Part shown: positions 22,007-25,009 of the stretch, in pieces
How the letters are laid out: each line of letters begins with the position of its first letter
How positions within the stretch are numbered: position 1 is the first letter of the stretch
Source of the DNA: a virus
Direction: 5' to 3' (one strand)
IMG/VR virus record: IMGVR_UViG_3300020157_000012
Location: 1 to 27,851 of that record
DNA: 27,851 nt
The notes under the pieces: generated by a model
Told to the model about the DNA's origin: nothing
Databases searched by the model: none
What the model saw: the letters and a program-made list of their open reading frames with translations, nothing else
Made by a program: the position numbers and the translations under genes

Positions 22007-22552
22007 CTACTTAACCCGCTTTAATAAAGTCTTATGTTGTTTATTTAGATTATTTGATATAGCATCATGCGCCATTTTATGAATAGGAATATGAGATCCA
22101 CCAGTTTTTCCAGAAAAAGCATAAGCGCCAATAGCAGGAATTCTTACAGGTGCAGCAATGAAATCACCAGCACTCCAAATACCAGAACTATGAGAAATAA
22201 CGTATCCACGCTTTTTTCTAAGAACATAAGCCTTACGACCAGTAAGACCTTCTTCAGAATTCATGAATATACGAGCAATATGAGTACTAGACCCACCGCT
22301 ACTCCTAGGATAAATCCTAACACTTAACCCTGATGGGCCGGATTTTTTTACTTCCACACTTAAGTATTTGCCACCACGACCTCTTCTTACCAAATCTCGC
22401 TCTATATCGCCCACAGAGGCAAGTAGTGCCCTCTCATTAGCTTCCACAATCTTCTGTGAAAGACGACCATAGTGATCAGCAACTTGATTAAAATGATTTA
22501 GGGGATCACCAAATTGACCAACATTAATTTTAGTTTTAATTTCAAGGCCCAT
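22007..22552 (-). CDS. HK97 gp10-like neck/tail completion protein
   Basis: This 181-aa basic protein has an N-terminal helical segment (DPLNHFNQVADHYGRLSQKIVEAN), the RGRGGKYLSV turn and a beta core with a basic hairpin (RKAYVLRKKRGYVISHS). The ending GSHIPIHKMAHDAISNNL is typical of minor tail or gp10-like proteins ('...A...N...L'). It probably works at the head-tail junction or in tail completion. I chose the ATG at 22552, with GAGGG 9 bases upstream, over a TTG at 22558 that lies too close to that site. It overlaps the stopper gene by 11 bases. Confidence 0.65.
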   Translation of the reverse strand: MGLEIKTKINVGQFGDPLNHFNQVADHYGRLSQKIVEANERALLASVGDIERDLVRRGRGGKYLSVEVKKSGPSGLSVRIYPRSSGGSSTHIARIFMNSEEGLTGRKAYVLRKKRGYVISHSSGIWSAGDFIAAPVRIPAIGAYAFSGKTGGSHIPIHKMAHDAISNNLNKQHKTLLKRVK

Positions 22553-22919
22553 TCTCAATCACCCTCTTTAAAGAAACTTTAGCATGATTTAATTTTCCAG
22601 TAAACTGCATCTTTTTTTCAATACCAGTAACTTCATAATATGAACCCTCAATAACTTCACCATAACGATCTTTTATATTCTTAACTCTAATATCATAATT
22701 TAAAAATCTTAAATAATCTTTAGGAATAAAAATATCTAATTGCTCAATATTAGCAATATAAGGATTATTCAAAGCATAAGAATTAGACCACTGAGCAAAA
22801 CAAGGAATCGTATCAACATACGAAAGAGTATGAACTTTTTGACCGGCAGGGCTAATAGTCTCCACTTTATTATAAAGTTCAATAGTATGATGAAACTTTA
22901 TAAAAGTACCGTAAGACAT
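22542..22919 (-). CDS. Head-tail stopper (adaptor) protein
   Basis: This 125-aa beta-rich protein carries FIKFHHTIELYNKVETISPAG, PCFAQWSNS, LDIFIPKDYLRF, RYGEVIEGSYYEVTGIEK and a final strand, consistent with SPP1 gp16-type or HK97-type head closure proteins. These form a ring under the connector that retains DNA. The start overlaps the connector stop as TAATG. The call depends on small beta-barrel pattern and gene order. Confidence 0.65.
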   Translation of the reverse strand: MSYGTFIKFHHTIELYNKVETISPAGQKVHTLSYVDTIPCFAQWSNSYALNNPYIANIEQLDIFIPKDYLRFLNYDIRVKNIKDRYGEVIEGSYYEVTGIEKKMQFTGKLNHAKVSLKRVIENGP

Positions 22920-23848
22920 TAAACTATATAATCCATAATGAACATCATATAGTCCATCAAAAGAACATCAGCGTCAATATTGCCAGTAGTCTCATAGAAT
23001 CTATTACTCATACTAAACGTAGTAGTATCCATACTGATGCTACTAATACCATGACGACGATACTCTGAATCGTCATTCATAATGTCAGCAATAAGAAGAT
23101 TAGCTGCTTGCTTTACATTAGTTGGGACATATCTCCAACCAAAATCCCCAACAATCTTATAAGAATTAGCAGACTTAAATTTATTAGCAATCAATCTACT
23201 TTGATTAGTTTCAATAATTGATGACTTAAACCTTAAATAATAAGAACTTTCAAAATTACTTGATTCACGAACTCTCTCAATAACATTGTAAGAAGGGTTA
23301 GTAACATCATAAATAACAAGAGAGTCAGTATACCCATCATTCATAGTTACCTTATTTAAATAGGCAATAGGTAAATCCAAATGTAGCATAGTATGATTAT
23401 TACCATCAACAGTAATAGTTTTATTTTCATAATAGTCAAAAGCTTGACCACAATAAGTATTTATAACATTACGAACTCGCAATTCAAACTTATCAAAAAC
23501 ATCTTGAAACTTAGTAATAAGCTCAGGGTACTCTTCAAAAAAAGTTTCCGAATCCGTATAAGGAGTATAAACATTAAAATACTGATACTGAGAATACGAA
23601 ACCCCAGACATAGTATAAGTAAACTTAGCTTTATATACGCCAGCAGAACTCAAAATATAAATACCTGAAGACTCCTGACCAAAAGTAACAGTGTAAACAC
23701 CAGTAGAAACCTTGGTAGCAGAAACACCAGTTTTTACAAGAGTATCTCCAAGATCATGGTAAAGATCAACAGTAACAATATTAGAAGTAGGATCAGAAGG
23801 TAAAGTAAGAGTAAGAGTCTTACTATTATTTATTTTAATAGTATCCAT
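22919..23848 (-). CDS. Head-tail connector with N-terminal Ig-like domain
   Basis: This 309-aa protein appears to have two parts. Residues 1-95 are a beta sandwich (KTLTLTLPSD ... VTVDLYHDLGDTLVKTG ... VYKAKFTYTMSGVSYSQ). Residues about 100-309 resemble gp6-type head-tail connectors: helices (ETFFEEYPELITKFQDVFDK), a beta insertion, then PTNVKQAANLLIADIMNDD and a C-terminal 'GNIDADVLLMDY' helix. Twelve-fold rings of such proteins extend the portal. AAGG, overlapping the stop of the Cys-rich gene, lies 7 bases before the ATG. The fusion is likely a natural family arrangement, but I cannot verify this. Confidence 0.68.
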   Translation of the reverse strand: MDTIKINNSKTLTLTLPSDPTSNIVTVDLYHDLGDTLVKTGVSATKVSTGVYTVTFGQESSGIYILSSAGVYKAKFTYTMSGVSYSQYQYFNVYTPYTDSETFFEEYPELITKFQDVFDKFELRVRNVINTYCGQAFDYYENKTITVDGNNHTMLHLDLPIAYLNKVTMNDGYTDSLVIYDVTNPSYNVIERVRESSNFESSYYLRFKSSIIETNQSRLIANKFKSANSYKIVGDFGWRYVPTNVKQAANLLIADIMNDDSEYRRHGISSISMDTTTFSMSNRFYETTGNIDADVLLMDYMMFIMDYIV

Positions 23849-23856
23849 AACACACC

Positions 23857-23976
23857 TTAACAGTCACACTCTTCACAGCCGCAATCACAATAATCAGAAC
23901 ATTTGCAACCACATTTGCAAGATTTACTACGCACAGAAAAACAAGACCAATTAAAGATTTTCAATGCATAAGACAT
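23857..23976 (-). CDS. Cysteine-rich 39-aa microprotein, metallothionein-like
   Basis: An ATG at 23976 opens 39 codons ending in TAA at 23857-23859. The protein has 10 cysteines: C12, C20, C22, C24, C26, C30, C32, C34, C37 and C39. Nine of them fall in the last 20 residues in CKCGCKC, CDCGC and CxxCxC patterns. This dense CxC/CxxC spacing is typical of metallothioneins and other thiolate metal clusters; disulfide cross-linking is an alternative. The first 11 residues are hydrophobic/aromatic (MSYALKIFNWS), possibly a short anchor or interface. No Shine-Dalgarno site is seen; a TATAAT 8 bases upstream suggests leaderless expression. Its stop overlaps the ribosome site of the connector gene. 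It is not recognisable as a known phage protein family. Confidence 0.6.
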   Translation of the reverse strand: MSYALKIFNWSCFSVRSKSCKCGCKCSDYCDCGCEECDC

Positions 23977-23984
23977 ATGTACTA

Positions 23985-24012
23985 ATTATACCCCAAAAGG
24001 GATTTGAAACAA
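23985..24012 (-). promoter_or_regulatory. Candidate promoter for the Cys-rich gene
   Basis: On the minus strand TTGTTT (24012-24007) is followed after 16 bases by TATAAT (23990-23985). The predicted start, about 23978-23976, falls on or 2 bases before the ATG, giving a leaderless transcript of a type that is common in Actinobacteria. The -35 matches only three of six consensus positions. Confidence 0.45.
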
Positions 24013-24030
24013 GACTGTGATTAATAAAAG

Positions 24031-24984
24031 TTAATGCACTGCAAGATAATCTATTACACCCCAAGTTTCCGGGCCAACAACACCATCAACAGTAAGTTTA
24101 AAAAACTTTTGAAGATCTCTAACTCTTTTATCTGTTTGAGGACCAAATGATCCATCAACAGAAATGTTACCCCCAGCTTTATAAAGAATAACACCCTGAA
24201 GATACTTCACAATATCCCCGATAGAACCTTTATTCATAGTTGGTTTCTTTGCAAGAGGATACAAGCTAAAAAGCCCATTAGCAGGATCAAATGGGGGAAG
24301 CGGTGTTGGCTTAGGCGGCTTCGGTTTAATTGGCTTAGGTGGCACCACAGGGGCAACATAGAGCCATGCAGGGAACGGACGCTTAGATACGTTCGTATCA
24401 ATACTACCCATCCCAGAAACATCAAGCGGAGTCCCATTCCACATAGGATTAAAAAACCTATTCACATTACCATGACCACCCTGCCAAACATGAGCATCAG
24501 GATGACGACCGCCACCCCAAGCATAAGCATTAGTAGCCCAAATAAGATCAAAAGCAGCACCCTTAGCTCTTGAAGCATCAACAGCTTTCTTAGAACCATA
24601 AATACCAAAAAGAAACCCGCCAGCCCGAACAGCTTTCTCAGCAGCAACAAAATAATCTGCACAAGCATCAGTCCACTTAGAACTATCATGAGTCATGATA
24701 ATTGGAACACTATTATCATTAGGAATACCAAAATCCTGAGCACTCTTAATCCAACGAACAGCATCAATAGTACCAGCAGTAGCACCATCCTCCGCTCTAG
24801 TAGTAGAAACCTCACCAATAGGGATAACAGGAATACCATTAGCCATATACTCAGCAATTTTTATTTTATCCCAATTTTTAAGATAACAAGCAACAAACTT
24901 AACACCACGAGATTTAATCAACTTCGCATCAGGATACGCAGAAAGAAAATCTAAACCATAAACATTAGCTTCAACAGTACTCAC
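24031..24984 (-). CDS. Endolysin: DUF1906 glycosidase-like plus PG-binding domain
   Basis: This 317-aa protein has three parts. Residues about 8-200 match the DUF1906 (Rv2525c-like, GH25-related TIM barrel) pattern: VYGLDFLSAYP with D12, IPVIPIGEV with E58, PIIMTHD, GFLFGIYGSKKA and DLIWATNAYAW...HVWQGG. Residues 212-231 are a Pro/Lys-rich linker. Residues about 252-315 are a PG_binding_1 domain (GSIGDIVKYLQ ... VDGSFGPQTDKRVRDLQKFF ... VDGVVGPETW). There is no signal peptide, so export should rely on a holin. The start is GTG, with AAGGAG 5 bases upstream. It is unusual in lying between a fibre gene and the connector genes, far from the holin. A virion-bound wall hydrolase is an alternative. 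Confidence 0.82.
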   Translation of the reverse strand: MSTVEANVYGLDFLSAYPDAKLIKSRGVKFVACYLKNWDKIKIAEYMANGIPVIPIGEVSTTRAEDGATAGTIDAVRWIKSAQDFGIPNDNSVPIIMTHDSSKWTDACADYFVAAEKAVRAGGFLFGIYGSKKAVDASRAKGAAFDLIWATNAYAWGGGRHPDAHVWQGGHGNVNRFFNPMWNGTPLDVSGMGSIDTNVSKRPFPAWLYVAPVVPPKPIKPKPPKPTPLPPFDPANGLFSLYPLAKKPTMNKGSIGDIVKYLQGVILYKAGGNISVDGSFGPQTDKRVRDLQKFFKLTVDGVVGPETWGVIDYLAVH

Positions 24985-25009
24985 AATATCTCCTTAACCA
25001 TATAAAATT

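Follow-up and report, generated by a model that had tools for sequence, protein, structure and literature searches.

A conserved nine-cysteine microprotein gene in the late cluster of uncultivated phages, with features of a minimal metal-thiolate peptide

Results

Composition and Setting of the Cysteine-rich Frame

A short frame between the endolysin and connector genes of an uncultivated phage is unusually rich in cysteine, which raises the question of whether it is a gene and, if so, what its product does. The window (the whole stretch of DNA analyzed) is a 27.9-kb virus record, and the features that bear on this question are as follows.

23857-23976, minus strand: cysteine-rich microprotein ORF, 39 amino acids from the ATG at 23976, if that is the start; a leaderless start is possible, 8 nt after TATAAT
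23857-23934, minus strand: unit shared across the family, (V/M)RSKSCKCGCKCSDYCDCGCEECDC-stop, made up of 25 codons and a stop, with a possible GTG start
23985-23990, minus strand: TATAAT, a putative -10 promoter element by its sequence, its end 8 nt ahead of the ATG at 23976
22919-23848, minus strand: head-tail adaptor (connector) gene, 309 amino acids, immediately downstream (PHROG 442, head-tail adaptor, E=1.2e-9)
24031-24984, minus strand: endolysin with an Rv2525c-like glycoside hydrolase domain (PF08924, E=1e-10) and a peptidoglycan-binding domain (PF01471, E=4.5e-13), immediately upstream

The minus-strand product of 23857-23976 is MSYALKIFNWSCFSVRSKSCKCGCKCSDYCDCGCEECDC. Its translation bears out the preliminary description, which had counted 10 Cys in 39 residues, nine of them within the last 20, and had pointed to CxC and CxxC patterns; CxxC occurs once in the frame. 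A Cys-rich reading was also looked for on the plus strand at the same positions and was not seen. The frame does lie just before the connector gene, ending 8 nt ahead of the connector ATG. The stop codon had been said to overlap the ribosome site of that gene, and since the stop TAA is followed by GGTGTGTTATG, the TAAGG at the stop could indeed serve as the adaptor's site. Two further genes of the window were observed on the minus strand: an HNH endonuclease gene (1679-2191, PHROG match) inserted among the late genes, and a small r1t-type holin-like gene (145-357, PF16945) at the far end, well away from the endolysin.

Cysteine density proved to be weak evidence for a gene, because out-of-frame readings of neighboring genes in the real window reach 12 Cys per 20 residues. 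These stretches come from Ala/Thr/Val-rich genes read in the wrong frame, and related loci likewise show them. The best 20-residue stretch in each of 200 dinucleotide shuffles of the window held 5-9 Cys. Density alone was thus rejected as evidence, Cys-dense frames being common in random and out-of-frame readings. The exact nine-Cys spacing, on the other hand, occurs once in the window and in none of the 200 shuffles. The decisive evidence that the frame is a real gene is its conservation across other phages.

Conservation in Related Phages

Relatives were sought without reference to the cysteine motif by using the products of adjacent genes as queries, namely the adaptor protein, an adaptor alignment, and a BppU-like protein. 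The adaptor protein retrieved three full-length relatives from IMG/VR, two of which carry a nine-Cys peptide directly upstream of the adaptor (MRSKSCDCGCECEEHCTCGCEECDC in L002 and MRNKNCNCGCDCVEHCDCGCEECDC in L004); in the third, L003, a tail-fiber-like gene takes the place of the nine-Cys frame. Among the 80 loci retrieved with the adaptor alignment, the nine-Cys frame is present in each of the ten best (L167-L176, 59-66% identical to the window), and in L232, L234, and L241 the frame lies ~2 kb upstream, ahead of tail genes. The BppU-like protein also retrieved 80 loci. All nine Cys are present in 21 of these, with the frame 2-3 nt ahead of the BppU-like gene, and at most four Cys are present in the other 59, with no intermediates. 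The first glycine of the motif is not absolute, since L248, which is among the 21, reads CECDCDC. Both the adaptor and the BppU-like gene have many close relatives that are not accompanied by the microprotein, and its absence from 59 of 80 BppU-type relatives indicates that it is not essential to this architecture.

A scan of viral contigs with the full motif, CxCGCxCx3CxCGCx2CxC-stop, yielded 63 matches, and the pattern TGYNNNTGYGGNTGYNNNTGYNNNNNNNNNTGYNNNTGYGGNTGYNNNNNNTGYNNNTGYTRR serves for finding further members. The same kind of scan over 84,980 prokaryote species genomes gave three matches, all in repeat-like frames and none genuine. Scanning for the first six Cys only added one contig with the full array, L447, in which the frame adjoins the adaptor gene; the other new loci were rejected as unrelated, out-of-frame noise without this context. 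A relaxed pattern without the glycine positions returned mostly trinucleotide-repeat frames, together with real variants that include L248 and L367. In L030 (285-623, plus strand), a 112-amino acid frame without a Pfam or PHROG match terminates in ACGCGCGCDCYNKCDCGCGCH; here a comparable Cys-rich tail is joined to a longer phage protein.

The typical family product is 25-33 residues long and ends in C-x-C-G-C-x-C-x3-C-x-C-G-C-x2-C-x-C-stop, with the array at the extreme C-terminus. The start codons of relatives fall on or close to the window's GTG codon (VRSKSC in the window corresponds to MRSKSC in L002), and the conserved unit is therefore ~25 residues with nine Cys. The 39-residue, ten-Cys unit first described is thus a real frame, but its first 14 residues and tenth Cys are peculiar to the window phage. 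In the 25-amino acid unit, the nine Cys make up 36% of residues; they are invariant in an alignment of the window unit with 30 other family members, and the CxC/CxxC array is invariant across 38 DNA versions. Neighboring cysteines occur only in the L056 group (TECCEC), Cys elsewhere alternating with other residues. The residues around the Cys are acidic. Aromatic residues and histidine are mostly absent from this putative metal domain, but at one position phages differ, with H, Q, or Y (the window has Y). By inspection the microprotein has no signal peptide, and its C-terminal Cys is free.

Selection was assessed over 24 codons in 38 distinct DNA versions, which encode 33 proteins. Each of the nine Cys columns is invariant in protein and mixes TGT and TGC. 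The pN/pS ratio is 0.22 for the 38 versions, a set conditioned on the motif, and 0.18 for the 24 versions from motif-blind loci, which are much less so; these ratios are rough, as synonymous sites are near saturation. At non-Cys columns the same rough ratios are 0.48 and 0.42, respectively, and conservation at the protein level extends to Gly, Lys, and acidic positions. Conservation of the frame and its cysteines in relatives and a pN/pS of ~0.2, a check set beforehand, establish a real Cys-rich microprotein under purifying selection. The frame represents a new family of bona fide late phage genes.

Gene Neighborhood and Probable Host

The placement of the frame within a connector gene cluster, as originally described, holds in a broader form: the gene belongs to a late lysis/connector/tail cluster, but its upstream neighbor is usually a lysis gene and its downstream neighbor is either the connector or, in another group, a BppU-like tail gene. 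Wherever a viral locus includes downstream sequence, the same-strand gene that follows is the adaptor or BppU-like gene, at distances ranging from a 7-nt overlap to 34 nt. The BppU-like product is a BppU_N-like/L-shaped-tail-fiber-assembly-like protein. Upstream, most loci have an endolysin, an SNase-like gene following an endolysin, a holin-like gene, or a peptidoglycan-binding protein (L152 and L155); the upstream gene in L086 and L149 is of unknown type. The staphylococcal-nuclease-like (SNase) gene lies between the endolysin and the Cys-rich gene in L002 (4475-4855), L018, and L050. At this same genomic place the endolysin catalytic domain varies, being an Rv2525c glycoside hydrolase in the window and VanY-like in L002 and many others. 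The lysis side of L002 (2343-3626 and 520-1917) and of L004 (2847-4142) encodes secreted-looking proteins that are unusual phage cargo; one ends in LPKTG and a membrane tail, resembling a sorting signal, and in another a PA14 domain is accompanied by a long stretch rich in Pro and Thr.

Among named phages, the closest adaptor relatives are those of Streptomyces and Rhodococcus phages, at no more than ~29% identity (28.9% for the head-to-tail adaptor of Wakanda, a Streptomyces phage), and no isolate near the window phage was found in the named-phage collection. These adaptor relatives, the Rv2525c-like endolysin domain, and the LPKTG-like tails encoded in the lysis cassettes of L002 and L004 make actinobacteria the likely hosts.

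Initiation and Transcription Signals

Most versions have an initiation signal, either a Shine-Dalgarno site or an overlap with the endolysin stop. In about half, a Shine-Dalgarno site precedes an ATG (once a GTG) that is 5-6 codons ahead of the first Cys. In some 12 others, the ATG overlaps the upstream endolysin stop (TAATG or TGATG), an arrangement of translational coupling. L091 starts with GTG at the position of the window's GTG and has a Shine-Dalgarno site. No such site was found for the window microprotein, including before its GTG, and for this reason the start codon in the window is uncertain.

The TATAAT at 23985-23990 was not listed by a consensus sigma-70 scan because no good -35 element fits. 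TATAAT also lies 6 nt ahead of the ATG in L148 and L367. Leaderless mRNA is common in actinobacteria (PMC4633059), and the TATAAT-ATG spacing in these three phages is compatible with such a transcript. In the 90 nt that precede the first core Cys, an exact TATAAT is present in 10 of the 15 distinct versions of adaptor type and in none of the 23 of BppU type. On this basis the peptide probably opens the connector-gene transcript in the adaptor-type group, and it probably continues the lysis transcript in the BppU-type group.

Searches for Known Relatives

Pfam, NCBIfam, PHROGs, and PDB sequences contained no meaningful relative, short Cys-rich queries having low power and HMMER bias correction making such searches insensitive. 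Specifically, none of the 31 family members matches a PHROG profile, and no catalogued metallothionein family in Pfam, NCBIfam, or the PDB matches, again at the low power that 25 residues afford. A tblastn search of named phages with the peptide gave no match, which does not imply absence since BLAST masks such Cys-rich queries. The isolates nearest by connector (at most 28.9% identity; Streptomyces and Rhodococcus phages) were therefore inspected. Ahead of the adaptor, no Cys-rich frame is listed in Wakanda or in the inspected stretch of NiceHouse, and the 34-amino acid gene at this place in Faust has no Cys. The family has been found so far only in uncultivated phages. Open-license papers on phage or viral metallothionein yielded no report of such a protein, and a review of phage small proteins mentions neither cysteine, zinc, nor metal. 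The suggestion that this protein would be unusual for a phage accordingly stands, as family libraries miss it and the open-license papers hold no report of its kind in phages.

Discussion

What might the peptide do? We consider the chances somewhat better than even that it is a late cytoplasmic metal-thiolate peptide, in which nine Cys surround metal ions and zinc or copper is buffered or sequestered. Late in infection, a cytoplasmic peptide of 25-33 residues would be produced from the lysis/connector/tail cluster, and its nine invariant Cys would fold around metal ions into a single thiolate cluster. This could hold three divalent ions on nine Cys, as in one metallothionein β domain, or alternatively be a Cu(I) cluster. 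The peptide would then buffer or sequester zinc or copper while the lysis and tail/connector proteins accumulate. Metal binding, the cluster type, and the physiological role are inferred from sequence, and zinc and copper are candidate metals. A metal-thiolate cluster is preferred over disulfides because of the odd number of invariant Cys, the tight CxC array, the lack of a signal peptide, and the free C-terminal Cys. The resemblance to a minimal metallothionein comes from the number of Cys, which equals that of the β domain, and from the similarly short metallothionein of Neurospora. Animal metallothioneins are Lys-rich, and the acidic residues around the Cys of the phage peptide, which differ in this respect, weigh against metal binding. 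That the family constitutes a phage-specific minimal metallothionein (25 residues, nine Cys, and a single cluster) expressed together with the late genes, either controlling zinc or copper in the cell or loading a metal cluster into the virion, strikes us as an even prospect.

Other roles were weighed against this one. The peptide might instead be a virion protein of the connector or the tail tip/baseplate, its metal cluster stiffening or capping a joint. A structural or tail-assembly gene invariably follows immediately on the 3' side of the microprotein gene, in many cases at a distance of 0-12 nt, and the connector-type peptide seems to open the connector transcript (TATAAT in 10 of 15). However, the downstream partner switches between connector and BppU-like protein while the peptide is unchanged, and the many close relatives of either partner that lack the peptide imply that neither structure needs it, so that a virion role is unlikely. 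We regard as quite unlikely a disulfide-rich or thiol-reactive peptide that works late in infection by oxidation of its cysteines, for instance to buffer redox state or as a thiol effector directed at the host. A peptide with nine Cys would be reactive, and actinobacteria have a distinct thiol system, mycothiol, which counts in favor of such a role; yet a folded peptide with intramolecular disulfides needs neither an odd number of Cys nor the exact CxC array, a mere thiol pool needs no fixed spacing, and a peptide lacking a signal sequence stays in the reducing cytoplasm.

An association with lysis genes raises the prospect that the peptide meters zinc, controlling its delivery to M15/VanY-type endolysins or holding it back from them until the cell lyses. 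Most loci have an endolysin or another lysis gene upstream, and several of these endolysins belong to or resemble the zinc-dependent VanY/M15 enzymes. The window endolysin, however, is of a glycoside-hydrolase type that is not a known zinc enzyme, and among peptide-less BppU-type loci the majority carry a VanY-like endolysin immediately upstream. Presence of the peptide did not correlate with zinc dependence of the endolysin across loci, and a link between the two was not supported; zinc metering appears very unlikely. The least probable role, with only a slim chance, is that of a Cys-responsive leader peptide whose translation is what matters, stalling at Cys codons tuning the downstream gene. 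The frame is short, immediately upstream, Cys-rich at its end, and possibly leaderless in the window, and such attenuators are reported from mycobacteria (Canestrari et al. 2020, cited in PMC9031893). Against this, the Cys codons alternate with others rather than being contiguous as in the reported ORFs, the Gly, Lys, and acidic positions are conserved in protein, and the 0-34 nt gap leaves little space for a separate attenuator. A conserved RNA structure was likewise not supported, as none of the 15 pairs predicted in the consensus fold shows a compensatory change; an Rfam search of 22500-25000 gave no match.

Should the peptide prove to bind metal, few natural metal-thiolate proteins would be smaller, and it would, within the reach of our searches, be the first one known from phages; phage control of host zinc or copper would then become directly testable. 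The family also shows that genes of ~25 codons, too short for the usual cut-off of gene callers, can be strongly selected in dozens of uncultivated phages, and its nine-Cys array offers a simple DNA pattern for locating them.

Several known systems invite comparison. SmtA/BmtA and MymT are prokaryotic cytoplasmic metal-thiolate proteins; SmtA/BmtA have His ligands and a zinc-finger-like fold. These bacterial metallothioneins are longer than the phage peptide, which has no Pfam or NCBIfam match. To our knowledge, no CxCGCxC run occurs in the short fungal copper metallothioneins, such as those of Neurospora crassa and Agaricus bisporus. These are similar in length to the phage peptide and likewise consist of a single Cys-rich module, but are eukaryotic, without detectable homology to it, and have seven Cys, the N. 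crassa protein having 26 amino acids (PMC4755600). In the mammalian metallothionein β domain, three metals are bound by nine Cys (PMC2872756). This M3S9 domain shares with the phage peptide the nine Cys in a short stretch and the CxC and CxxC spacing, whereas the phage peptide is tighter (nine Cys in 20 residues), acidic, free-standing, and without detectable sequence relationship. The polycysteine leaderless ORFs of mycobacteria, reported as cysteine attenuators (Canestrari et al. 2020, cited in PMC9031893), are also short Cys-rich frames just upstream of an operon in actinobacteria; their Cys codons are contiguous, whereas the phage array alternates and is conserved as protein. Finally, Com of phage Mu is a small zinc-binding protein encoded beside the gene it serves (PMC6483171). 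As a zinc finger, Com binds mom mRNA, whereas the phage microprotein carries nine Cys in one continuous array.
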